Below, in pieces: positions 6,758 to 36,170 of a DNA stretch of 64,000 nt; the first letter of the stretch is position 1, and each line of letters begins with the position of its first letter. The DNA comes from Synechococcus sp. CS-1330. GTDB lineage: Bacteria; Cyanobacteriota; Cyanobacteriia; PCC-6307; Cyanobiaceae. The DNA lies in contig JAHLYR010000068.1 in the NCBI GenBank assembly GCA_025128025.1, positions 124,001 through 188,000 on the forward strand. Direction: 5' to 3'. Below the pieces are notes generated by a model. It saw only the letters and a list, made by a program, of their open reading frames with translations. It made no database searches and had not been told where the DNA came from. The translations under genes and the position numbers were made by a program.

Positions 6758-7525
6758 ATGACCTTGCCCAGCACCTGTTTTCGATCCGCCCTGGCCTTGG
6801 CTGTAGGCCTGGGCACCCTTCCCCTCACGGCTCCGGTAGCCCAAGCATCCGAGTTGCTCCAATCCGCTGGGGCCTCTCAGCCCAGCTTTCCCACTGCTCT
6901 GGCCCTGCCCCTGCCCCCACCGCCGGTGAGGATCTTTGCGATCACGGCTGAGCGCCGCGCCCTGCTCAACACCATTCGCTACGCAGAAGGCACCTGGGCC
7001 GATGGCGACGACATTGGCTACCGGATCATGTTTGGTGGCGGCCTGATGCCCTCCCTGGAGCGCCATCCCGACCGGGTGGTGCGCACTGCCCGCTATGCCA
7101 GTGCCGCGGCAGGTGCTTACCAGTTCATGCCCTTCACCTGGAACATGGTTTCGCGCTCCTTGGGAATCGCGGCCTTCGGTCCCCAGGTTCAAGACCAGGG
7201 CGCCATCTACCTAATCCAGCGTCGTGGTGCCCTGGCCCTGGCTGATCAAGGCGAGTTCTCGCCGCTGCTGGCTGCCAAATTGGCCCCCGAGTGGGCCAGC
7301 TTCCCCACCCTCGCCGGCCGCAGCTTTTACGGCCAGCCGGTGAAGCGCTTCCACGACCTCAAGCGCTTCTACGACGCCAACCTCAGCCGTCTGCGCGATC
7401 AGGAGCCCCAGGTCACAGCCAAAGTTGAAACCAAGCCCGCCTGTGCACCGGCTGGCTCCCTGCGCTGTCAGCTCGAGGCCCTTGAAAACTTAGGACCGCG
7501 CAGCCGCAGCCAAAACCCCGGCTGA
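6758..7525 (+). CDS. Secreted lysozyme-like (muramidase-fold) protein
   Basis: A 255-residue protein with a Sec-type signal (MTLPSTCFRSALALAVGLG, cleavage probably after PVAQA). The mature part has the motif set of phage-lambda-endolysin-like lysozymes: LLNTIRYAEGTW with the catalytic-type glutamate, YRIMFGGGLMPSLERHPDR, SAAAGAYQFMPFTW and LAPEWASFPTL. Such proteins cut peptidoglycan glycan strands in the periplasm. An upstream in-frame start at 6614 exists, but the ATG at 6758 begins exactly at the signal peptide and is preferred. No phage genes are nearby, so this looks like a resident cell-wall enzyme. Confidence 0.8.
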   Translation: MTLPSTCFRSALALAVGLGTLPLTAPVAQASELLQSAGASQPSFPTALALPLPPPPVRIFAITAERRALLNTIRYAEGTWADGDDIGYRIMFGGGLMPSLERHPDRVVRTARYASAAAGAYQFMPFTWNMVSRSLGIAAFGPQVQDQGAIYLIQRRGALALADQGEFSPLLAAKLAPEWASFPTLAGRSFYGQPVKRFHDLKRFYDANLSRLRDQEPQVTAKVETKPACAPAGSLRCQLEALENLGPRSRSQNPG

Positions 7526-7529
7526 TTTT

Positions 7530-8351
7530 CTAGCCCTGATCGGCATCTTTGAGCCTGGCCTTACCTACGGTGGCTCCGGCGATTAGGTAAGCGCCGAGAG
7601 CGGCGCCGAGGAAGGCCAGGGTGTTGCGGGCAACCGGCAGCAGGTCGTTGGTGCGGGTCAGGATTGGGCCCAGCCCTAGGGCGCCAAACAGGATCAGCCA
7701 CAAAGGTGAGAGCAGCAGCACCCAGGCCCATTCCACCTTGCGACCTTCTTTGCGTGGATAGGAAGCGAACCCCGCCACCAAGCCGCCGAGCACGGAAGTG
7801 GAGAGGGTGAGCAGCCATTGCTCGCGCGGCAGGCCCGGCACCACCTGGCAACCACCCCGCTCCAAACAAATTTCCACCGCTGCAAGGGCATCGACAATGG
7901 CGGCGTCCTGGCCGTTGTCGCGCACGTAGTACTGGTTGCCGAAGCGGGTCTGCAGCTCCACCCAGTAGGTGCGGGGCATCAAGGCAAACAGGGCATCGCC
8001 CACGTTGAAATTGAGCAGATTGCCGCCGCGCTCATCGGCCACCAGCAGCAGGCTGCGTTCGTCCAGGTTCCAGAAGTCCTTCACCGCCTGGCCTGGGGTG
8101 CGGTCGTACTGGGTGAGCACCCGCAGTTTCCAGCCGGTATCGGCCTCGAAGCGGGTGAGGTTTTCTTCCAGGCTGATGCGCTGACCATCGGTGAGGGCCT
8201 TAGCCAGGTCGATCACCGGGGTGGGGTGGTCGGGTAGGAGGTCGGGGTTGTCGTAGGCCTGGGCCGGAGCGATGCCCACACCCAACCAGCAGGTCAACAC
8301 CAGCAACAGCGACACCAGCGCAGGCAGCACGGCGTTCCAAGCGCGACCCAT
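7530..8351 (-). CDS. psb32: TPM-domain thylakoid protein, Psb32/TLP18.3-like
   Basis: A 273-residue protein with a signal sequence ending near PAQAY, a lumenal TPM domain (TPVIDLAKALTDGQRISLEE, WKLRVLTQYDRTPGQAVKDF, DERGGNLLNFNVGDALF), and two C-terminal membrane helices around residues 205-260. Proteins of this architecture (Psb32, plant TLP18.3) assist photosystem II repair and protect against photodamage. It ends 4 bases from the convergent lysozyme-like gene and diverges from the methyltransferase across 47 bases. Confidence 0.85.
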   Translation of the reverse strand: MGRAWNAVLPALVSLLLVLTCWLGVGIAPAQAYDNPDLLPDHPTPVIDLAKALTDGQRISLEENLTRFEADTGWKLRVLTQYDRTPGQAVKDFWNLDERSLLLVADERGGNLLNFNVGDALFALMPRTYWVELQTRFGNQYYVRDNGQDAAIVDALAAVEICLERGGCQVVPGLPREQWLLTLSTSVLGGLVAGFASYPRKEGRKVEWAWVLLLSPLWLILFGALGLGPILTRTNDLLPVARNTLAFLGAALGAYLIAGATVGKARLKDADQG

Positions 8352-9998: not shown

Positions 9999-11469
9999 AA
10001 ATCCCAGTGCGCTGTTAATCGCCTGGCTGCTGGCTCCCCTGCTGGCGGCGTTCAGTGCGGCCCTGTTGCCATCGCTGGCCCGGCCCCTTGCCCTGCTGTC
10101 GGCTCTTGTAACCGCAGCCCTCGGTTTGGCATTAACTGCGGGCCTTGGCCCCTGGAGCTTGGAGCTGATCGGGCCCCTAGGGGTGTTGCTGCAGTTCGAT
10201 GAAGCTGCGGCGCCTTTTGTTCTGCTCAATGGTTTGGTGGTGCTGGCGGTGTTGCTGGATGGCTGGCGCCAGAGCGTGCCAGGCCCCTTTTTGGTGCTGG
10301 TGATGGTGCTGCTGGCAGGGCTCAACTCCGCCTTTGTGGCGGTTGATTTGGTCAGCCTCTATGTGGCCCTCGAGGTGGTGGGCGTTGCCGCATTCCTACT
10401 GGTGCTGCGTCAGCGCAGCGCTCTGCAGCTGTGGATAGCCCTGCGCTATCTCTTGGTGGCCAATGGCGTGATGACGCTCTATCTGCTGGGCGTGGCGCTG
10501 CTCTACTTACGCAGCGGCAGCTTCCGCCTGCAGGCCCTGGCTGATCCGGGCTTGGGAAGCGGCACCCGAGCGGTGGTTCTGGCTCTTTTGCTGGTGGGGT
10601 TGCTCACCAAGGCCGGGGTGTTCGCCAGTGGCCTCTGGCTGCCGCGCACCCACGCCGAGTCGCCAGCTGAGGTGTCGGCCCTGCTCTCGGGGGTGGTGGT
10701 GGCAGCTGGGCTCTGCCCCCTGTTGCGGCTTAGCGAGGCCCTGCCGATGCTGCAGCCCCTACTGCTTTTGATCGGCTTAGCCAGTGCCCTGCTGGGTGTG
10801 TTTTATGCCTTGGCTGAGAGTGATCTCAAGCGACTGCTGGCCTGGAGCACGGTGTCGCAGGTGGGGCTGGTCATCCTCGATCCGGCCGTGGGGGGGATGT
10901 ATGCCCTAGCCCATGGTCTGGCCAAGGCGGGTTTGTTCCTTTTGGCAGGTCGCGTGGGTCGTGATCTAAACCGCTGGACCGTCAGCTCCTTGCCATTGCA
11001 GCAGGCCCTGCCCCTCTGGTGTGGTGCCCTTTCGATCGCAGGGGCGCCACCGCTGCTTGGCTTCTGGGCCAAGGAGGGCCTCAGCCGCAACCTCAGCGGC
11101 CCAGCTAGCTCGGTGCTACTGGTGGCCATGGTGGGCACAGCGGCGGTCTACGCCCGCCTGTGCCTCCGGCCCCTCGCCTTGCCTTCGGGCTGGCCGCCGC
11201 TCGGCACGGTTCTACTGGCGCTGCTGTTGTTGGGGTCTGGCTTGTTGCTGGCACCACTGCCACCCCAGGGCTCGATTTTCAAGACTCTGGGAGTTCTGGC
11301 TGCGGGGGTTGCGCTGCAGCAAATGCTGGAGCTGGTCCGCCGGTTTGAGTCTCCCCAGCTGAAGCTGCCCCAGCTGGAACGGCTCGATGACCTGCTCGGC
11401 GGCATGGCTGTGATGGCGGCACTGTTGATGGGCTTGTTGCTGCAGGGAGGGTTGCAATGGCCCGCCTGA
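9991..11469 (+). CDS. mrpD: MrpD-like proton-translocating antiporter subunit
   Basis: About 492 residues, with many hydrophobic helices and the NuoL/M/N signature. Conserved charged residues sit in VSLYVALEVVGVAAFLLVLR, GLLTKAGVFASGLWLPRTHAESPAEVSALLSGVVV and LKRLLAWSTVSQVGL. These correspond to the channel glutamate and lysines of complex I antiporter-like subunits. The ATG at 9991 overlaps the mrpC stop; an earlier in-frame ATG (9967) is less likely. It is the only antiporter-core subunit in this operon, since no MrpA is present. Confidence 0.88.
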   Translation: MTENPSALLIAWLLAPLLAAFSAALLPSLARPLALLSALVTAALGLALTAGLGPWSLELIGPLGVLLQFDEAAAPFVLLNGLVVLAVLLDGWRQSVPGPFLVLVMVLLAGLNSAFVAVDLVSLYVALEVVGVAAFLLVLRQRSALQLWIALRYLLVANGVMTLYLLGVALLYLRSGSFRLQALADPGLGSGTRAVVLALLLVGLLTKAGVFASGLWLPRTHAESPAEVSALLSGVVVAAGLCPLLRLSEALPMLQPLLLLIGLASALLGVFYALAESDLKRLLAWSTVSQVGLVILDPAVGGMYALAHGLAKAGLFLLAGRVGRDLNRWTVSSLPLQQALPLWCGALSIAGAPPLLGFWAKEGLSRNLSGPASSVLLVAMVGTAAVYARLCLRPLALPSGWPPLGTVLLALLLLGSGLLLAPLPPQGSIFKTLGVLAAGVALQQMLELVRRFESPQLKLPQLERLDDLLGGMAVMAALLMGLLLQGGLQWPA

Positions 11470-11882
11470 TCACCGTGGCGCTGCGGCTGTTGATCTGGCT
11501 GCTACTGAGCGCAGACATAACTCTGATCAATTTTTTGATTGGCCTGCTAGTGGCGGTGTTGCTGCCGATGGGGCGGCGCAGCAGGCCCCTGCCTCCACAG
11601 CAGCTACTTGCCTCGTTGTTCTCCAGCCTGACGGCGATTCCTCAGGCTTATGTCGAAGCGATCCAACTTTTGCTGGGTGGCAAGGCCCTAGAGGAGCGCC
11701 TAGAGAGCCAGCGGTTCATGGGGCCGCGGTCTGCCCTGCTGGTGTTTCTCGAGGTGTTCAGGGTGACGATCACCCCGCTCACTATCGCCTTGGGAATAGA
11801 GCCGGGGGGGCGGGCCTTTCGGGTGCATCGCCTGGCCCCGCCCCTGCCGCCGCGCCAGGTTTTGCCTGGAGGTGAGCTATGA
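11457..11882 (+). CDS. mrpE: MrpE-like antiporter subunit
   Basis: A 141-residue protein with two N-terminal helices and the MrpE pattern NFLIGLLVAVLLP, SLFSSLTAIPQAYVEAIQLLL, and VFLEVFRVTITPLTIALGIEPG. MrpE is a structural subunit needed for assembly of Mrp complexes. It overlaps mrpD by 13 bases and mrpF by 4 bases. The C-terminus is short and rich in proline and arginine. Confidence 0.82.
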   Translation: MARLITVALRLLIWLLLSADITLINFLIGLLVAVLLPMGRRSRPLPPQQLLASLFSSLTAIPQAYVEAIQLLLGGKALEERLESQRFMGPRSALLVFLEVFRVTITPLTIALGIEPGGRAFRVHRLAPPLPPRQVLPGGEL

Positions 11883-12142
11883 GCACCGCCTGGCTTGAGC
11901 CCCTGCAACTGGGCATGGTGGCGGCCCTACTCCTGCCCATTCTGGTGGCGTGCCGCAACGGCGATGTTTGGCACCGCCTAGCTGCCCTAGCGAGCATCTC
12001 CACCAAGGTTGCCCTGCTGATGCTGGTGGTGTCGGTAGTTCGCGACGATTGGATGGTGGGCTTTGTGGGCGTGATCGTGCTCAGTGTGGGCAACGCGGCC
12101 GTAATGCTGCTGGCCCACCTATTGCGTGGCACTGATCGCTAG
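11879..12142 (+). CDS. mrpF: MrpF-like antiporter subunit
   Basis: An 87-residue protein with three helices and the MrpF layout (LGMVAALLLPILVACRNGDVWHRLAALASISTKVALLMLV, then FVGVIVLSVGNAAVMLLAHL). It starts inside the end of mrpE (ATGAG) and ends 3 bases before mrpG. MrpF is a small membrane subunit required for antiport in characterised systems. Confidence 0.8.
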   Translation: MSTAWLEPLQLGMVAALLLPILVACRNGDVWHRLAALASISTKVALLMLVVSVVRDDWMVGFVGVIVLSVGNAAVMLLAHLLRGTDR

Positions 12143-12145
12143 CGG

Positions 12146-12433
12146 ATGGCCATGAACACCACCTTTGTCAAAACACTCCTGGAGCCAGTTAGTGGTCTGC
12201 TGTTGCTGGCGGGCCTGGTGCTCTGGTTTGCGGGCACCTGGCCGTTGCTGGGCCGCCGCAGTTTCTTGCACAAACTCCACTACCTGGGAATTGCCGACAC
12301 CCTCGGTTCGGCCCTGATGCTGCTGGGTCTGCTGCTCCGTCTCAACCGGGAGTGGCCCCTGCTGCTGCTGGCGCTGCTCTCTTTGGTGGTGTGGAACACG
12401 ATCTTCGGCTACGTGCTGGCCAGCTGCTCCTAG
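12146..12433 (+). CDS. mrpG: MrpG-like antiporter subunit
   Basis: A 95-residue three-helix protein matching the MrpG family, with FAGTWPLLGRRSFLHKLHYLGIADTLGSALMLLGLLL as the signature. A second ATG two codons downstream is possible. The gap to the next gene is 26 bases, the largest inside the operon. Confidence 0.8.
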   Translation: MAMNTTFVKTLLEPVSGLLLLAGLVLWFAGTWPLLGRRSFLHKLHYLGIADTLGSALMLLGLLLRLNREWPLLLLALLSLVVWNTIFGYVLASCS

Positions 12434-12459: not shown

Positions 12460-12990
12460 ATGAATTTGGCACTTGAGGCGCCCCTGCTGCTGCCGCTAAC
12501 TGCCCTGCTGCCCCTCACCGCCATCTTGCTGGTGGCCCAGGCCAATCCTTATCAAACCCTTGTGCTTAGGGGCATTCTCGGCGCTGTGGCGTCTTTGGTT
12601 TATGCCCTGCTGGGTGCGGCGGATGTAGCCCTCACCGAGGCCCTTGTGGGCACCTTGCTTTCCACCACCCTCTACGCAGTTGCCCTGCGTTCCTCGATGG
12701 TGCTGCGGGTGGGGGTGGCAACTTGCTCTGTGCCCGGACCGCCACCAGAGGCCCTGCTGGTGGAGCTGCGCTCCTGGTTGGATCCCCTGCATCTGCGCCT
12801 AGAGCTGTTCAGCCCCACCGATCCAGACCTGCATGCAGTGCTCGAGCCTGCGGCCCATTCCGGCTGTTACACCCTGCGGCTAGGCAGCCGCCAGTTGCTG
12901 GAGCGCCTTGCCCTGCTGCCTGGGGCTGGGCGCTGGCGGGCTGCTGGCCACCGGCTCGAGCGGATTGAGATTGAGGAGTTGCCGAAATGA
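12460..12990 (+). CDS. DUF4040 (MbhD/MrpA-C-terminal-like) subunit with soluble tail
   Basis: A 176-residue protein. The first 80 residues form three helices with the DUF4040 pattern (LLVAQANPYQTLVLRGILGAVASLVYALLGAADVALTEALVG). In bacteria with full Mrp this is the part of MrpA that follows the NuoL-like core, and in Mbh/Mbs complexes it is a free subunit. The remaining 90 or so residues are soluble and contain a repeated-looking LRLE/LRLG strand pattern I do not recognise. It overlaps the next gene by 4 bases. Confidence 0.72.
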   Translation: MNLALEAPLLLPLTALLPLTAILLVAQANPYQTLVLRGILGAVASLVYALLGAADVALTEALVGTLLSTTLYAVALRSSMVLRVGVATCSVPGPPPEALLVELRSWLDPLHLRLELFSPTDPDLHAVLEPAAHSGCYTLRLGSRQLLERLALLPGAGRWRAAGHRLERIEIEELPK

Positions 12991-13658
12991 GACGGCCGGT
13001 TGCCTTGGTTTACGGCTTGGCTGCTGCGGTTACCTGCTTCGCACCACTGGCTCTGGCGTTGTCCGAGTCCCCTGCCATTGATGCTGTGCTGGAGGAGCTT
13101 TTGCAGGAAGGGGGCGTTCCTAATCTGGTGGCGACGGTGATCCTGCACACCCGCCTCTACGACACGGTGGCGGAGGTGGTGGTGTTCACCCTGGCCTCTA
13201 TGGGCGTTCGCTGGATCCTGAGTGGGGAGCCCCATCAAACCCTGATCCGCGACCTTCAGGACGCTCCATCTGTGATGTTGTGCCAGCTCGGGGCGACGGT
13301 TTGCGCCCTAGTTGCGGTGGAGCTTGCCTTGCGGGGCCATCTTTCACCTGGAGGTGGCTTTGCCGCAGGTGTGGCCGGCGGCACGGCGATTGGCCTAACC
13401 CTGATAAGTGGGTCGGCTCATCTGGCCGATCGGCTCTATCAGCGTTGTCGCGCCGATCTTTGGGAGAAGGCGGCGGTGGTTGCCTTCGTGCTGGTGGCCC
13501 TGCTCAGCTTGGAAGGCCTGGCCCTGGGTAGCGGACGTTTCGGGGCTATTGACAGTGGCGGCTGGATCCCACTGCTCAATGCCCTAGTTGCGGTGAAGGT
13601 GACGCTTGGCTCCTGGGCGATGGTGCAATTGCTGGTGCGTTATCGAGGCCTTCTTTAG
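12987..13658 (+). CDS. mrpB: MrpB-type (MnhB-domain) antiporter subunit
   Basis: A 223-residue membrane protein. The N-terminal 75 residues resemble the last helices of MrpA (NLVATVILHTRLYDTVAEVVVFTLASMGVRWIL). The rest is MnhB (VELALRGHLSPGGGFAAGVAGGTAIGLTLIS and the terminal helices). It is the last gene of the operon and ends 20 bases from the convergent SDR gene. A fusion of an MbhE-like piece with MrpB is the most natural reading. Confidence 0.8.
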   Translation: MRRPVALVYGLAAAVTCFAPLALALSESPAIDAVLEELLQEGGVPNLVATVILHTRLYDTVAEVVVFTLASMGVRWILSGEPHQTLIRDLQDAPSVMLCQLGATVCALVAVELALRGHLSPGGGFAAGVAGGTAIGLTLISGSAHLADRLYQRCRADLWEKAAVVAFVLVALLSLEGLALGSGRFGAIDSGGWIPLLNALVAVKVTLGSWAMVQLLVRYRGLL

Positions 13659-13678
13659 AGCTAAAGCTCATCCTCAAA

Positions 13679-14362
13679 TCAGGATGCAGCAAGCCACTGG
13701 TTGAGGGCTTGGGGCTGCTGGGTGGGACTGCTGGTGATTTCAATGATTCGCCCGCTGGCGGCCGGGGTTTCCAGGGCTTCTAGGCACACCCGGGCCACCA
13801 GGCGGCGGGGCAGGCTGCTGCTCTCCTGCTGGTTGGGGCCGGAATAAACCACCCCCTCCCTTTCGCTGCGGCTGTCGTCCTCGCTGAGGCCGCCGGGGCG
13901 CACCACGGTCCAGTCGAGTCCGCTTTCTTCAAGCCAGCGCTCGCCCAGGCGTTTCCACACCAGGATCAAGCCAAACAGGTTGAGGGGGTGCTGCCAGCGC
14001 CCGGCGCAGAGCGAACTCACCAGCACCACCCGCTTCAGGCCCACCGCCTGGCAGGCGCGGATCTGGTCGCGCACCCCGAAGGCATCCACCTTGAGGGGGC
14101 CGGCCAGATCCACTGATGGCCGGGCGCCAGTGGCGATCACCAGGGAGTCACAGCCGCTCAGGGCGGCATGCAAGGCCTCGGTGGCACTGAGATCCAGTCG
14201 CCGCACATCGAGCCGCCCTTGCTGCTCTGCTTCGCCCAGGGCCGCTGGCAGCACGGAGCCGGGCCGCACGATCGCCCGCACCCCCAGGCCCCGCTTCAAG
14301 GCTTCATCCACCACCCGCCAACCGGTTTTTCCGGATGCTCCCGTCACTGCTACCAGGCTCAT
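13679..14362 (-). CDS. Atypical SDR / NAD(P)-binding epimerase-like protein
   Basis: A 227-residue Rossmann-fold protein. It starts VAVTGASGKTGWRVVDEALK, a GxxGxxG nucleotide-binding loop, and has VVLVSSLCAG and the LDWTVVRPGGLSED segment typical of the atypical SDR group that includes plastid and cyanobacterial NAD(P)H-binding proteins. No YxxxK catalytic pair is evident. Its ATG overlaps the stop of the glycosyltransferase gene by 4 bases (ATGA), making it the last gene of a three-gene unit. Confidence 0.75.
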   Translation of the reverse strand: MSLVAVTGASGKTGWRVVDEALKRGLGVRAIVRPGSVLPAALGEAEQQGRLDVRRLDLSATEALHAALSGCDSLVIATGARPSVDLAGPLKVDAFGVRDQIRACQAVGLKRVVLVSSLCAGRWQHPLNLFGLILVWKRLGERWLEESGLDWTVVRPGGLSEDDSRSEREGVVYSGPNQQESSSLPRRLVARVCLEALETPAASGRIIEITSSPTQQPQALNQWLAAS

Positions 14363-16314
14363 CGCTGCATCTCCGCCATCACCGCTCCATGTTGCTCGTT
14401 TGGCGGATTGGCTGACAGCAGGCTGCGCTTCAGCCAGGTCTCAGCTGCTAGCGGCCGCAGCAGCCGGGTCAGGATCACAGCCAGGGCAAGCGGTTCGGCT
14501 GGCGCCCGCCGCGTCGGCCACTGGCCATCGCGGCGGTATAGCCGCTGCTGCAGCCACTCCTGCCGCTCCTCCGCAAGCTCGCTTGAAATCGGTGCCCAGC
14601 TGCAACCAAGACGCTTCCCCCGGCAGGTCTCGAGTCTCAGGAGCCAGCAACGGCCGTCGCTCGTGGCGAGTTCCAGCTCTTGCCCCGGCTGCGGCGCTGC
14701 CCGCTCCAGCTCAAGCTCGAGGCCCGCTTCGCTTAAGGCCACCAGTTGGGCGGGCTGGCCAGCTAGCCACACCGCCTCTCGCCAGGCCAGCCAGGGCACG
14801 GCATCGCTGCGGGGCCGGTCCCAGCAGCAGCGCATGGCGGTTAGCAGCAGCAGCACATTCACCAGGGCCCAGCCCACACCGAGGGCCAGGGTGGCCTTGC
14901 TCTCGGGCAATAGGTCCAGCCGGTCACCGCTCGCGATGGGCAGCAGATTCAGCAAGGCCACCAGCTGCAGGCTGAGCAGGGCCAGCAGGGGCAACAGCAG
15001 GCCCGGTTCGGGGCTGGTTTGGCGGCCACTGGCCAGGGCCTTGGGTGTGACCCGGAAGGGCAGGGGCTTGCCCAGCAGGGTGCTAAGCACCGCTCCCACC
15101 AGCGGCAGCAGCACCACCAGGCGGTAGAGCTCGCTGGTGAGGGCGGTGCGGCTATGGGCCGTAAACCAGCGAGCCAGCACCAGCTGGGCGCCGTAGAGGG
15201 GCAGGGCCATCTGCAGCAGTCCGGCACCGCTGACGCGTAGCGGCGCGATGCCCAGCACACCCAGGCTCAGGGGCATCAGCAGCAGCACCAGCTGGGGCAG
15301 CGCGTTGAGCCAGTGCAGGATCCCCTCGAGAAAGGCCAGCCGCTGGATTGGATTAAGGCCCTTGATCAGCAGGGGGCTGGCACCGGTGCGCAGGGTTTGC
15401 AGGGTGCCGCTGGCCCAGCGGCAGCGTTGGCGGGCAAAGGCGGCGGCGGTGAGGGGCGCCATGCCGGCGCTGAGCTTCTCCGGCACAAACAGCAACCGCC
15501 AGCCGGCGCCTGTGAGCCGAATGCCGGTGGCCAGATCCTCTGAGGGGGTGCCCGTCTCGAAGCCACCCACCGCCAGCAGGGCGGAGCGGCGCACCACAAA
15601 GGATGTCCCCGCACACACCACCGCCCCGAGCCGTTGGCGCACCGGCTCGATCCAGCGGTAGAAGCTCTCTTCATCGGGCAGCAGCCAACGCTCCAGAGCC
15701 AGGTTGCGGATCACCGGATCGGCATTCATATAGGTCTGGGGTGTCTGCACCAGGCCCACTTCGGCCGTATCGAATAGCCCCACTGTTCGCTCCAGGAAGC
15801 CCCGCACCGGCACAACATCCGCGTCGAATATGGCGATCAGCTCGCCTTGCAGCTCCGGCAACACGTGGTTGAGGTTGCCTGCCTTGGCATGCTCCCGCCG
15901 CTCGCGGCTGCGGTAGTGGCAGCCCAGGCGCTTGCAGAGCTCAGCCAGCTCCGGCCTGCCGGAATGATCGAGCAGCCACAGGCGGTAGCGGTTGTAGTTG
16001 AGGGCGCGGCAACCGCGCAGGCAGCGCTCCACCACCTCGATCGGCTCGCCGTAGCTCGGCACCAGCACATCCACCCAGGGCTGGCTGGCCGCCTGCTTGG
16101 GGTCTGCGCTAGCCGGGACTTCCCTTTGGGCCGGTGCCAGGGTGAAAAGCAGCTGCAGGAAGCCGTGGGCTAGCAGCCAGAGCTCGGCCGCCAGCAGCAG
16201 CAAGCTCAGGGCCGCAGCCAGGGGGCTATCGAGGTTGAGGGTGGCTGTGCAGCGCCAAAAGACGTAGCGACAAGCCAGCAGGGCCAACAGCAGTACGGCC
16301 CAGGGCAGGCGCAT
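14359..16314 (-). CDS. Cellulose-synthase-like family 2 glycosyltransferase
   Basis: A 651-residue processive-type GT2 with the architecture of BcsA: two N-terminal helices, a cytosolic GT domain, several helices, then a soluble tail. GT motifs are VLVPSYGEPIEVVERCL, the DxD of IFDADVVPVRGFL, SED in GTPSEDLATGIRL, and QRCRW (the Q-x-x-R-W motif). The tail after about residue 500 resembles a PilZ domain (LVALSEAGLELEL), but the canonical RxxxR arginines and the D/N of D/NxSxxG are not found, so cyclic-di-GMP binding is doubtful. No bcsB, bcsC or bcsZ is nearby. The product may be cellulose or another beta-glucan. Confidence 0.82.
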   Translation of the reverse strand: MRLPWAVLLLALLACRYVFWRCTATLNLDSPLAAALSLLLLAAELWLLAHGFLQLLFTLAPAQREVPASADPKQAASQPWVDVLVPSYGEPIEVVERCLRGCRALNYNRYRLWLLDHSGRPELAELCKRLGCHYRSRERREHAKAGNLNHVLPELQGELIAIFDADVVPVRGFLERTVGLFDTAEVGLVQTPQTYMNADPVIRNLALERWLLPDEESFYRWIEPVRQRLGAVVCAGTSFVVRRSALLAVGGFETGTPSEDLATGIRLTGAGWRLLFVPEKLSAGMAPLTAAAFARQRCRWASGTLQTLRTGASPLLIKGLNPIQRLAFLEGILHWLNALPQLVLLLMPLSLGVLGIAPLRVSGAGLLQMALPLYGAQLVLARWFTAHSRTALTSELYRLVVLLPLVGAVLSTLLGKPLPFRVTPKALASGRQTSPEPGLLLPLLALLSLQLVALLNLLPIASGDRLDLLPESKATLALGVGWALVNVLLLLTAMRCCWDRPRSDAVPWLAWREAVWLAGQPAQLVALSEAGLELELERAAPQPGQELELATSDGRCWLLRLETCRGKRLGCSWAPISSELAEERQEWLQQRLYRRDGQWPTRRAPAEPLALAVILTRLLRPLAAETWLKRSLLSANPPNEQHGAVMAEMQR

Positions 16315-31331: not shown

Positions 31332-31922
31332 ATGATCCCGATCGTGATTGAAGAGTCGGGCCGTGGTGAACGCGCATTTGACATCTATTCTCGGCTACTG
31401 CGGGAGCGCATCATCTTTTTGGGTGAACCGGTCACTGCTGAGTCTGCCAACCGGGTTGTGGCCCAGCTGCTCTTTCTAGAGGCAGAAGATCCCGAAAAGG
31501 ATATTTTCATGTACATCAATTCACCGGGTGGATCGGTATATGACGGTCTGGGAATTTTTGACACCATGCAGCACATCAAGCCAGACGTGCAGACCGTCTG
31601 CGTGGGTCTAGCTGCCTCTATGGGTGCCTTTCTGCTTTGCGCTGGCACCAAGGGCAAGCGCAGCAGCCTCACCCACTCGCGGATAATGATCCACCAGCCC
31701 TTGGGCGGTGCCCGCGGCCAGGCCAGCGACATCCGCATTCAGGCCAACGAAATTCTCTACTTGAAGCAGAAGCTCAATCAGGAGCTCAGCGATCGCACGG
31801 GCCAAGCCCTGCCCCGCATCGAGGAAGACACCGACCGCGACTTTTTCATGTCACCCGCGGAGGCTGTTGAGTACGGCTTAATAGACAAGGTGATCGAAAA
31901 GAGACCCGTGCGTCCCGTTTGA
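31332..31922 (+). CDS. clpP: ATP-dependent Clp protease proteolytic subunit
   Basis: A 196-residue serine protease subunit. The catalytic serine is in [12 protein letters not shown] (Ser96), the histidine in [13 protein letters not shown] (His121), and the aspartate downstream in [31 protein letters not shown] and the C-terminal [12 protein letters not shown] complete the fold. All active-site residues are present, so this is a ClpP rather than an inactive ClpR. Cyanobacteria have several ClpP paralogues; which one this is cannot be settled here. Confidence 0.95.
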
Positions 31923-31945
31923 GGGACTGGCTGGCGTTCCCAGGC

Positions 31946-31968
31946 AAAATCTGATTAAAAGATTTTTT
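31946..31968 (+). terminator. Weak AT-rich hairpin after clpP
   Basis: AAAATCT pairs with AGATTTT across a 7-base loop, followed by two T. It lies between the clpP stop and the convergent beta-barrel gene, so it could end clpP transcription and, being nearly symmetric, also serve the other strand. Stem strength is low. Confidence 0.3.
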
Positions 31969-32713
31969 AAAACGAGTAGCGCAAACTCAGCTGCACCCCA
32001 TGGGCCTGCAAGGCCGCCTGGGTTCCTCCTATAGCGATCGTGGTGCCTGCTGGCAGCGTCGGTCGCGACAAGCCAGCCTGACCACTGCTGGTGCGCACAT
32101 CACCAAGGTCGCTAAAGCGATAGGCCAGATCGAGATCTAGCCGCTTACTAAGGGGAATGCTGATGCCTGCGGTGAGTAGGTAGACCAGATCGCTGGAGCT
32201 GCCATCGGGCGTGACAGTGGCAGCATTGGCAGCGATGCCAGGGAAGCGATAGGTAACGGAGCTAAGGCTGTTGCGGGCGACACCGAGGCCGGCGCCAAGG
32301 AAAGGGCGAATGCGGCCCACTTTGGGCAGATCCACATAGGCAACCCCAAATCCGGCCACCGAGGAGGCTGAGCCAGTCACAGGCTGGTTTGCTCCGGCAC
32401 GGCCCAAGAAGTTGCTTTGGCCGCTGAACTCCAGCTCTGGCCGCCAGCTGAGCAGGGCTTCGGCCCGCAACCAGCTGTTGAAGCGATATCCCGCCGCTGC
32501 ATCGATCACTGCTGCCGGCTCGAAGCTGCCTGAAGCTCCAAGGGCTTGGCCGTTATTGCCAGTGCCGCACCCAAACAGGGCAGGGGGCTGCAGGCTGGAA
32601 CAGTTGTTGTCACTGAAACCGTTTGCCTTTGGCCAATCGCTGCCTGCCCCCAGGCGCAGATAGGGGCCGCTAGCCAGCGGTGGGTTGGCGAGCTTTACAT
32701 CAATATCAGGCAT
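31967..32713 (-). CDS. Outer-membrane beta-barrel (opacity-type) protein without signal peptide
   Basis: A 248-residue protein with the alternating strand pattern of small opacity/OmpA-like barrels: ASGPYLRLGAGSDW, PAAVIDAAAGYRFNSWLRAEALLSW, VGRIRPFLGAGLGVARN, LVYLLTAGISIPLSKRLDLDLAYRFSDLG, ending VQLSLRYSF with the terminal aromatic expected of barrels. The ATG used overlaps the kinase stop by 8 bases. Neither that start nor the open frame upstream encodes a signal peptide, although the fold should need export. It may be a truncated copy missing its 5' end. Confidence 0.7.
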   Translation of the reverse strand: MPDIDVKLANPPLASGPYLRLGAGSDWPKANGFSDNNCSSLQPPALFGCGTGNNGQALGASGSFEPAAVIDAAAGYRFNSWLRAEALLSWRPELEFSGQSNFLGRAGANQPVTGSASSVAGFGVAYVDLPKVGRIRPFLGAGLGVARNSLSSVTYRFPGIAANAATVTPDGSSSDLVYLLTAGISIPLSKRLDLDLAYRFSDLGDVRTSSGQAGLSRPTLPAGTTIAIGGTQAALQAHGVQLSLRYSF

Positions 32714-33785
32714 TCCAGGCACTCGGATCGGGCAGAGCTTGCCAGGCGTCAATTTCCAAGGAGTAGGCCGCATGACGCTGGATCGCGTCATCCATGAACA
32801 GGGCTGCTCGGATGGGAATGTCTGGGCCCGTGAAGGAATGCATAGCTATGCCGGCAGTGATGGTCCGTAGAGCTGCCAATTGCAGGTCGTATCGCGCTTC
32901 TTCAAGCGAGTAGTCGCAAACTCCAAGCTTGAGCAGTTCTTGGTGCCACGCCTGCAGCAGGTCTTCATGACGTCCAAGCCGCTGCGCCTGGGGGGTGCTG
33001 CCGCCAATTAAAAAGGCGATATCAATAGCGGCTGAACTACGGCTGGCCCAGGACCAATCAATTATCACCGACTCCGGATCTTCCTGCGTATGGCCGAACA
33101 GCAAATTGTCGGCGCGCAGATCACCATGGACGAGGGTCCAAGGCCTGTCGTTGAGAGCCTGGTCAATGTCAGAGCTTTGCTCTAGTACCGCGCGATATAA
33201 GCGGCAAACATCCGTGCCGAAGCGCACGCCGTAGGTGGCAAAGAAATCATCAACGATTTCGGCTTTGGGGTCTGCAAACCAGAAGCCATGGTTTGGCAAC
33301 CAGCTGTGCTGGTTCAAGGAAGGATCAAGCCAGAATTCGGCGTGGATAGCTGCCATGCGTTGAATCGTGGCCAACGTTTCCTGGTAGCTGAGGCCGATGA
33401 CTTGATCGCCTGAACGTAGGTGGGTCAGATCCTCGATCAGCAACCAAAAAGGTTCAGAGGAATTGGTTGCAAAGACTGAGGGTTTGTGATTTTCTATTCT
33501 TGGAGTGCAGTGAGTGTAAACACCCACCTCACGACCAAAGGCATTATTCAGCCGGCTGAACTCATTGAAGTCCTTATTGGAGGTTTCACTTTTGAGAATT
33601 ACGCTTGCTGGCCCTTCTTCAGGTGGATCACAGCTCAGCTCTAGGCGCCAAGTGGTCGATTGAAATCCCCTGCCCTCCCCCAGCAGCTTCGCTTCCAGGC
33701 TTTTGACATTGGTGCCGAGAGCCTCGCCGATCCACTGCGGTTCGGGCTGCTTTACCAGCATTTCTGTGGGATCGATGGCCGCCAT
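32706..33785 (-). CDS. Aminoglycoside-phosphotransferase/CHK-kinase-like protein
   Basis: A 359-residue kinase-fold protein. The catalytic loop is LVHGDLRADNLLF and the metal-binding segment is VIIDWSWASRSSAAIDIAFLI, as in APH and CHK/EcKL-like small-molecule kinases. The N-lobe has WRLELSCD and ASVILKSETSNKDF with the ATP lysine. FWLLIEDLTHLRSGDQ resembles ecdysteroid-kinase-like proteins more than antibiotic kinases. Base composition is visibly lower in GC than that of neighbours, suggesting acquisition. It is translationally coupled to the beta-barrel gene. The substrate is unknown. Confidence 0.78.
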   Translation of the reverse strand: MAAIDPTEMLVKQPEPQWIGEALGTNVKSLEAKLLGEGRGFQSTTWRLELSCDPPEEGPASVILKSETSNKDFNEFSRLNNAFGREVGVYTHCTPRIENHKPSVFATNSSEPFWLLIEDLTHLRSGDQVIGLSYQETLATIQRMAAIHAEFWLDPSLNQHSWLPNHGFWFADPKAEIVDDFFATYGVRFGTDVCRLYRAVLEQSSDIDQALNDRPWTLVHGDLRADNLLFGHTQEDPESVIIDWSWASRSSAAIDIAFLIGGSTPQAQRLGRHEDLLQAWHQELLKLGVCDYSLEEARYDLQLAALRTITAGIAMHSFTGPDIPIRAALFMDDAIQRHAAYSLEIDAWQALPDPSAWNA

Positions 33786-33947
33786 ACCAAGAAGTCCAAT
33801 TGAGTGCGTGGCTATGAACCTTAGTTGGGTTAGGGCCGTTGCCCTTCAGTGCCGGCCAAGCAGCAGAGGAGCAGGAAGCTTCGAACACGGGTTGGTTGAC
33901 GGATGGGACCAGCGCGGCCAAGTTGGGGCGCACTTCAGAACTGCCGT

Positions 33948-34253
33948 ATGTACGCCACCCTGCGCGAATACGAGGGAATTAAGGATCCAGCTCAGGCCAC
34001 CCAGCCTTTGCTTGATGGGCTGCTAGCTGAAATGCAAGCACTGCCAGGTTTTATTGCCTACTACTTCGTGGACGTCGGTGAGGCCGGTGACCGGATGATC
34101 TCCCTAAGCGTGTTTGAGACTAGTGAGGCAGCTGAGGAGTCGAATCGCGTGGCAGCAGGCTGGGTGGCTCGCTGGTTAGCGGAACACCCACAAACAGCAC
34201 CCACGGCGAGTCGCGTGGATGCCGGTCCTGTGATGGCTAGTGCCACTGCTTGA
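33948..34253 (+). CDS. Antibiotic-biosynthesis-monooxygenase-like small protein (101 aa)
   Basis: A 101-residue dimeric alpha/beta-barrel-like protein starting MYATLREYEGIKDPAQATQP. The pattern LPGFIAYYFVDVGEAGDRMISLSVFETSEAAEESNRVAAGWV resembles ABM/YgiN-like folds, which range from monooxygenases to haem or quinone-binding proteins. Function is undefined. It ends exactly one base before the ftsH stop on the opposite strand. The 160 bases upstream hold no visible gene. Confidence 0.68.
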   Translation: MYATLREYEGIKDPAQATQPLLDGLLAEMQALPGFIAYYFVDVGEAGDRMISLSVFETSEAAEESNRVAAGWVARWLAEHPQTAPTASRVDAGPVMASATA

Positions 34254-36170
34254 TCAGCCGGCCAGCAGGGGCGAGAAGCGCTCCTTCTCTGGAATCGCCG
34301 TGAATTCGGCCACGATGGCGCGGAATTCTTCGCCATCGAGGCTCTCTTTCTCGATCAGAAGCTCCACCACCCGATCCATGCAGGCGCGGTGCTCTGCCAC
34401 CAACTTGACCGTGTCTGCGTAGCAGCTGTGCACCATCTGGCGCACGGCATCATCGATCTTGCTGGCAAGGCGATCGGAGCCATCGCTGCGGGTCATCAGA
34501 TCGCGGCCCAGGAAAACCTCCTGGTTGCCAGCCTCAAAGGAGACCTGGCCAAGATCGCTCATGCCAAAGCGGGTGACCATTTGGCGGGCAATCGAGGCGA
34601 CCTGCTGGATGTCACCACCGGCACCTGTTGTGACCTCTGCGTGGCCGAAAACCACATCCTCGGCAGCCCGGCCGCCGAGGGCACCCATGATGCGAGCACG
34701 GAGCTGGGCCCGGCTCACCAACATCTGCTCCTCGTCTGGAGAGAACCAAGTAAGACCCTGGGCCTGACCCCGTGGGATCAGGGTGACCTTCTGCACAGGG
34801 TCATGGGCCTGAACCAGGGTTCCCACCAGGGCATGGCCCACTTCGTGGTACGCGATCAGTCGCTTGCTGCGGCCATCGGTGAGGGGCTTGCCCTCCATGC
34901 CGGCAATGATCCGGTCGACGGCATCATCAATTTCGGCAAGTGAGGTTGCCTCCTTGCGGCGTCTGGCCGTGAGGATTGCTGCTTCGTTGAGCAGGTTGGC
35001 GAGATCGGCGCCTGAGAAGCCCGGGGTACGGCGAGCAATTACTTCGAGGCTCACATCGTCGGCCAGCTTTTTATCGCGGCTGTGCACCTTGAGCACAGAC
35101 AGCCTTCCTTTGATGTCTGGCACATCAACTTGAACCTGGCGATCGAAACGACCCGGGCGCAGCAAGGCTGAATCGAGCACGTCGGCTCGGTTTGTTGCGG
35201 CAATGATGATGATGCCGCTATTGCCTTCAAAGCCGTCCATCTCGGTGAGCAGCTGGTTGAGGGTTTGCTCCCTCTCGTCGTTACCGCCGCCGACACCGGC
35301 ACCACGCTGACGTCCAACCGCATCGATCTCGTCGATGAAGATCAAACAAGGGCTATTCTCCTTAGCCCGCTTGAACAGGTCGCGAACCCGGCTGGCACCC
35401 ACGCCAACAAACATTTCAACGAATTCAGATCCTGAAAGCGAGAAGAAGGGAACTCCAGCTTCACCAGCAATTGCCTTTGCCAGCAGGGTTTTGCCGGTAC
35501 CGGGAGGTCCTACCAGCAGCACCCCTTTGGGGATCTTGGCGCCAACTGAAGTAAAGCGCTCGGGGGTTTTTAGGAAGGTGACAACTTCTTGGAGGTCCTG
35601 CTTGGCATCTTCAACACCAGCCACGTCGTCAAATTTGACGCCAGTTTCAGCTTCCATAGCGAAGCGGGCTTTGGTTTTGCCGAATTGCATCGCTTGCCCG
35701 GGGCCACCAGGCATGCCGCTACCGCGGCGTGAAAGGAAGATCAGCGAGCCGATCAGCAGCAATGGGAAGAGCAGATTGCCGAGCAATCCAAGCGCTGGTG
35801 GAGCGGTTTTGGGTGGATGAATATCGAAGCTGATCCCCTGCTCCTTGAGCTTGTTGACCAGCTCTGGAGCAACACCGGGCAGGTCTACGCGCAGACGCTG
35901 CACCCGATTGTCTAGGTCTGGATCCACAGCCTCGATAACTGCACTGCGACCGCCGTCGAAGATATCGACCGCTGTTACTCGCCCCGCATCGACGTAATCG
36001 AGGAAGCGGCCATAGCTCATGCGGGCTACCGCCGCATTGCGGGGAGCAACCGTGGCGCCTTCTGGTTTGAACCGGGCCGTGCCGCCGTTGCCAAGCAGCT
36101 GCCATCCGAGGAATGCGACCACTGCGAGGGGCAGCAGCCAGAGGGCAATCAGACGCCAGCGCTGGTTCAT
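34254..36170 (-). CDS. ftsH: ATP-dependent zinc metalloprotease FtsH
   Basis: A 638-residue membrane protease. A first helix lies at residues 7-26, followed by a lumenal or periplasmic domain and a second helix near 127-146. The AAA domain has Walker A GPPGTGKT (221-228) and Walker B LIFIDEID, and the peptidase has HEVGH (442-446). Cyanobacterial FtsH hexamers degrade damaged D1 during PSII repair; Thf1, which governs their level, is encoded 3 kb away. Which paralogue this is cannot be read with certainty. Confidence 0.96.

Follow-up and report, generated by a model that had tools for sequence, protein, structure and literature searches.

The window, which is the whole 64,000-nucleotide stretch of DNA that was analysed, lies on contig C14 of a picocyanobacterial genome (G000). 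Between clpP and ftsH, it carries one kinase gene and one β-barrel gene that overlap each other, and one ABM-like gene. The features of the locus are listed below.

31332-31922, forward strand: clpP, the left flank (Pfam CLP_protease)
31924-33947: segment that genomes G003 and G008 lack at the clpP-ABM site, from DNA comparison with L063 and intergenic sequences
31967-32713, reverse strand: leaderless 8-stranded OmpA/OmpW-like β-barrel gene, 248 residues from the ATG at 32711-32713
32663-32713, reverse strand: the 17 junction-side barrel codons, apparently unconstrained as judged by synonymous and nonsynonymous codon changes
32706-32713, reverse strand: 8-base overlap of kinase stop and barrel start, with the junction lying within ∼45 bases of it
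32706-33785, reverse strand: EcKL/APH-like small-molecule kinase gene, intact, 359 residues
33948-34253, forward strand: ABM-like gene (antibiotic biosynthesis monooxygenase superfamily), divergent from the kinase gene
34254-36170, reverse strand: ftsH, the right flank (Pfam Peptidase_M41 and AAA)

The kinase and barrel genes are convergent with clpP and divergent from the ABM-like gene, beyond which ftsH is located. The Pfam ABM match of the latter gene (E 0.001) is under the Pfam cut-off. The stop codon of the kinase occupies 32706-32708; the barrel ORF ends at 31967 and its longest start is at 32791, while the usable ATG is the one at 32711-32713. The 8-base overlap of the original prediction was right in both frames and coordinates. 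None of the ORFs that separate clpP from ftsH is a transposase, and the windows 31901-32000 and 33771-33960, which were compared in search of insertion-end repeats, share no 8-mer in either direct or inverted orientation. The promoter scan gave 0 sites versus 0.8 expected, and the count of terminator-like sites was not above expectation. At 31925-31970, ∼45 bases of A/T-rich spacer that follow the barrel stop in G007 and G015 are missing in G000. Phage origin was considered and rejected; PHROGs gave no match for the kinase or the barrel, and the structural matches to phage barrels reflect a generic fold.

The kinase matches two Pfam families above cut-off, EcKL (PF02958; E 1.2e-19, 71.2 bits versus a gathering score of 22) and APH (E 3.3e-8, 34 bits versus 23.2). 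It contains the motifs HGDLRADN and IIDWSW; His220, Asp222, Asn227 and Asp243, which we take to be the catalytic residues of the EcKL/APH superfamily (HxDxxxxN and the following Asp), are invariant in the alignment, which covers 15 of the kinases found. Like the family matches, the predicted fold (model pLDDT 78.5) places the protein in the EcKL/APH superfamily, nearest to choline, N-acetylhexosamine, 25-hydroxysteroid and aminoglycoside kinases and Rv3168; the choline/ethanolamine kinases and 25-hydroxysteroid kinase are the further comparators that can be named. Different from the structurally known EcKL/APH kinases, it has no significant sequence match to any relative of known structure (best E 0.081), and no NCBIfam model scored above its cut-off. 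The kinase is under strong constraint in the codon model (ω 0.066), and it would be a cytoplasmic enzyme that phosphorylates a hydroxyl group of a small molecule. For a related bacterial EcKinase, gene transfer to fishes has been proposed (PMC4687049).

The barrel protein belongs to Pfam OMP_b-brl (PF13505; E 9.2e-10, 39.4 bits versus a gathering score of 28.7). In the best AlphaFold model (pLDDT 86.1), it is predicted to form a complete OmpA/OmpW-like barrel with eight long strands; two of the five models were confident (pLDDT 86.1 and 79.3), the remaining three scoring 37.7-45.9. The best PDB matches are OmpA (9fzd and 9fzc), Legionella porin III, NspA, OprG and OmpW. It shares the Pfam family and the eight long predicted strands with the OmpA/OmpW/OprG/NspA-type barrels; however, the sequence identity to these PDB matches is 7-16% only, and the window barrel has two cysteines, Cys38 and Cys49, in its first long loop, which are invariant in 15 aligned members including those of G000 and G015. 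A further difference from these barrels is the lack of a signal peptide.

Outer-membrane barrels are regarded as unable to do without a signal peptide, and we know of no route by which a leaderless one would get out of the cytoplasm. Of 300 genomes of the family, 25 gave a match and 18 a strong one (E below 1e-50), and without G000, G007 and G015 the latter leave 15 strong relatives. All 15 have a hydrophobic N-terminal leader, with a best 12-residue hydropathy of 1.47-2.72, although the start codon of the G234 barrel is less clear than its leader. Ahead of the first barrel strand, the corresponding value is 0.68 in G000, G007 and G014 and 0.97 in G015, the four genomes that form the clade of the window. 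Judged as a cleavable Sec signal peptide, the leader is present in 15/15 strong relatives and missing from the clade barrel, and among these 15 relatives in the 300 family genomes we found no leaderless homologue outside the clade. The full-length counterpart that the original prediction had proposed to look for does exist. One example is the orthologue of Synechococcus sp. CS-1331 (G002, L052:2934-3734), which is 64% identical over the barrel domain and equal in length; different from the window barrel, it has a typical leader (MHARTTPHLAVILPLALPLLAISGPAAHA) and is located at another locus, 2 kb upstream of the kinase. The literature search did not turn up a comparable leaderless barrel, which is no proof of absence. 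In L083 (G288), which belongs to another genus, a leadered barrel is interrupted by a stop directly behind its leader, representing another independent loss.

The place where the leader is missing is also the place where the barrel meets the kinase. Kinase homology extends to the LPDP codons and barrel homology begins a few residues ahead of the first strand; the ∼45 bases in between match neither. The same junction is found in G000, G007, G014 and G015, and since it is common to the four genomes, it points to one inherited event. Because all 15 other strong relatives have a hydrophobic leader, the clade barrel was truncated at its 5′ end where it adjoins the kinase, in line with what was claimed at the outset.

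Between clpP and ftsH, the unit is rare. clpP was found in 16/16 genomes of the genus, and the stretch from clpP to ftsH was looked at in all of them. Kinase matches were found in 11 of the 16 and barrel sequence in six; however, the kinase stands beside barrel sequence between clpP and ftsH only in G000, G007 and G015, with a remnant in G014, whereas 12/16 have neither kinase nor barrel gene there. Among these, G003 and G008 have the ABM gene alone, and kinase, barrel and ABM are all lacking in the others. In seven genus genomes the kinase is at other loci, which differ from the epimerase locus in G003/G008, G010/G013 and G006. G002 and G004 do have it at the epimerase locus, with the barrel 2-4 kb upstream of the kinase, an order opposite to that of the window. 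In G003/G008, the barrel query gave a weak tblastn hit 3′ of the kinase; it was rejected, since it reflects an out-of-frame reading of the kinase 3′ end.

In the clpP + thf1 tree, G009 branches as sister to the four-genome clade. Its clpP-ftsH gap (L029) retains 41 bp of the barrel 3′ end as a scar, matching at 34/41 bases with a score of 47, compared to a maximum of 24 in 300 dinucleotide shuffles; a weaker ABM-like stretch was also observed (1/300 shuffles as good). The same scar test gave nothing in G005 and G001. Because G009 keeps this scar, the unit was at clpP-ftsH before G009 split off and was then deleted there. Taken together, these comparisons indicated that the segment is not ancestral at this site. 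The original prediction of a transferred or recombined segment stands insofar as the pair is absent from 12/16 genus genomes and the kinase is elsewhere in seven; a fresh arrival is contradicted by the scar of G009.

No direct precursor locus was found, and the epimerase gene has no orthologue-level match in G000. The epimerase/binding-protein locus was tried as the precursor and rejected; it holds barrel and kinase in G002/G004 and neither of them in G003, G007 and G014. A simple deletion between neighbours is ruled out as the source of the junction, since the barrel-then-kinase order of G002/G004 is the reverse of that in the window. Compared to L205, L206 and L207, the order of the binding-protein and epimerase genes is swapped in L052 (G002/G004 versus G003, G007 and G014), and the swap surrounds the site of the barrel and kinase in G002/G004. 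In L051 (G004), a full-length barrel is split by a 519-residue transposase gene and also has an in-frame stop (12730-15218); a second transposase-like ORF is located between the barrel and the binding-protein gene (10720-12258).

Because the junction is common to the four genomes, the divergence of their barrels arose after it, and the selection acting on the truncated gene can be read from that divergence. The codon model gave ω of 0.116 for the barrel domain (2ΔlnL 55.8 versus ω fixed at 1); the estimate rests on the three sequences of G000, G015 and G007, with the G007 stop codon masked and with G014, where the gene is mostly missing, left out. For leadered barrels, ω is 0.11 in the trio G226, G114 and G089, and pairwise values are 0.08-0.24 in pairs with dS of 0.05-0.5. 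Between G000 and G015, the barrel domain differs by 27 synonymous and 11 nonsynonymous changes. With a like synonymous count, neutral simulations (n = 153) gave a mean of 67 nonsynonymous changes and a minimum of 41, together with 2.3 stops, and 8% were stop-free. An antisense or other-frame gene is ruled out as the source of the constraint, because the barrel frame alone is open over the barrel on both strands in G000 and G015. For the 17 junction-side codons, the synonymous/nonsynonymous changes in the pairs of G000, G015 and G007 are 0/5, 0/1 and 1/4; although the events are few, these codons look unconstrained and give no hint that a cryptic signal is being selected. These values argue that the leaderless barrel stayed constrained at the protein level after truncation. 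The gene was truncated, as originally proposed, but not thereby dead, and it is stranger than thought, having behaved as a gene in use ever since the leader was lost.

The barrel has not survived in all the lineages. In G007 it has a premature stop at codon 38, after which a nearly invariant tyrosine is changed, and G014 has lost most of the barrel, the kinase start and much of the ABM gene. Counting G009, the barrel is broken or gone in 3/5 lineages that once had it here, and the accessory unit is being lost piecemeal. In L056 (G014), a deletion at 7400-7540 joins ABM from about codon 78 onward to kinase codon 25, with both starts gone; the G014 kinase shows low ω despite its missing start.

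These losses are what would be expected if the barrel had been a pseudogene ever since it lost the leader, its low ω being borrowed through recombination with leadered alleles or the junction having spread recently. We take this explanation seriously without thinking it probable. The 144-bp window at the junction is low in divergence compared to the flanking windows (3/144, 6/144 and 5/144 among G000, G007 and G015), which may speak for this explanation; however, other kinase windows are as low, and the junction window is not exceptional. The dS of the barrel (0.15-0.18) is about that of kinase, ftsH and thf1 (0.10-0.27), giving no sign of a different history. A second barrel copy that could serve as gene-conversion donor was not found in G000, G007 or G015; each has one barrel match and none has a leadered copy. 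The neutral-decay simulations are, moreover, far from the data. The cause of the constraint may be either leader-independent use or refreshment from leadered alleles.

Another explanation takes the segment as a recent foreign acquisition, with AT-richness as its signature. The kinase is indeed AT-richer than its neighbours on average, with GC of 0.547 and GC3 of 0.600 compared to means of 0.643 and 0.735 for 62 mechanically picked ORFs of the window. Nevertheless, the deviation is mild, both for GC3 (z = -1.47) and for codon use (z = -1.47), and the adjacent genes are similarly low (ABM ORF, GC3 0.556, below the kinase; clpP, GC 0.562). Because the deficit, real as it is, is shared with these neighbours, composition by itself marks nothing foreign, and AT-richness is a weak signature of import. 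Kinase GC is 0.534-0.548 across G000, G007, G014 and G015, and is also low in G010 (0.545) and G013 (0.571). The nearest orthologues, which are at other loci, are GC-richer (G003, 0.636; G008, 0.632; G004, 0.589); those of G003 and G008 are 82-83% identical to the window kinase, which fits descent within the genus. The distribution in the family is patchy (kinase in 31/300 genomes; barrel in 25/300, 18 of them strong) and genera g1, g6 and g31 are intermixed in the kinase tree. This may speak for acquisition, and we read the three-genus tree and the patchiness as a sign of exchange inside the family or of recurrent loss there. No close donor sequence (over 90%) was found in another genus among the 300 family genomes. 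With the G009 scar putting the unit here before the clade split, recent foreign acquisition is improbable. Normal codon use, presence of the pair in most relatives and leaderless homologues in the outer membrane had been named as points against the original prediction; what we found is mildly unusual codon use, a rare pair and no leaderless homologue beyond the clade.

That the barrel does have a leader, reached through an upstream start or a frameshift from the kinase, is very hard to believe: although the reading frame of the barrel continues upstream past the ATG without a stop in G000 and G007, G015 and G014 have in-frame stops immediately upstream of the junction that rule out a longer N-terminus, inspection of every frame up to the junction showed no hydrophobic stretch, and the junction-side codons are unconstrained. 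The absence of a signal peptide at any start, as first noted, therefore holds.

The reading that we prefer, with modest confidence, is that of an accessory pair in which a kinase and a leaderless barrel were joined and placed at clpP-ftsH, the barrel being most likely still in use after the join and later lost in parts. It starts from four direct observations, the common junction, the missing leader, the constraint and the losses. An intact EcKL/APH-type kinase gene and the mature part of an OmpA/OmpW-like barrel gene would have been joined, probably by illegitimate recombination, and the pair placed between clpP and ftsH in the ancestor of the four-genome clade and its sister G009. The join would have taken away the promoter and the signal peptide of the barrel, leaving it presumably coupled in translation to the kinase through the 8-base overlap, while the kinase would act on its small-molecule substrate in the cytoplasm. 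Because constraint at the protein level was kept after the join, the barrel product is most likely still used, leaderless as it is, in the lines to G000 and G015, whereas G007, G014 and G009 would have broken or lost it independently of one another. The fullest form of this proposal, that the truncated barrel continues to be produced and to serve a function, either through leaderless export or inside the cell, and coupled to the small-molecule kinase, is put forward tentatively, and as stated we think it rather unlikely.

In addition to the locus itself, we also analyzed the co-occurrence of the three genes in the 300 family genomes. ABM was found in 14, the kinase in 31 and a strong barrel in 18; the seven of the 25 barrel genomes with weak matches (G012, G066, G098, G101, G154, G186 and G200) were left out of the table, and the G014 remnant was not counted. 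Kinase and ABM occur together in 12 genomes, barrel and ABM in 10, barrel and kinase in 11, and all three in nine. These joint occurrences exceed chance expectation, with Fisher p values from 5e-8 to 1e-11, uncorrected for relatedness, and the nine genomes represent two genera. In four of the nine (G076, G172, G261 and G279), there is no linkage among the three genes; in G209, the barrel lies next to ABM. The pattern hints that ABM, kinase and barrel may share a role in the handling of one small molecule.

If the barrel is a slow pseudogene, the locus would be a case of ordinary accessory gene turnover. If recombination keeps a dead gene looking alive, it would be a warning for bacterial pseudogene calls that are based on dN/dS. 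If the leaderless barrel is under full selection at the protein level in several species, then either these cyanobacteria would export it independently of a leader, or it would have a role inside the cell, or recombination would be masking a dead gene.
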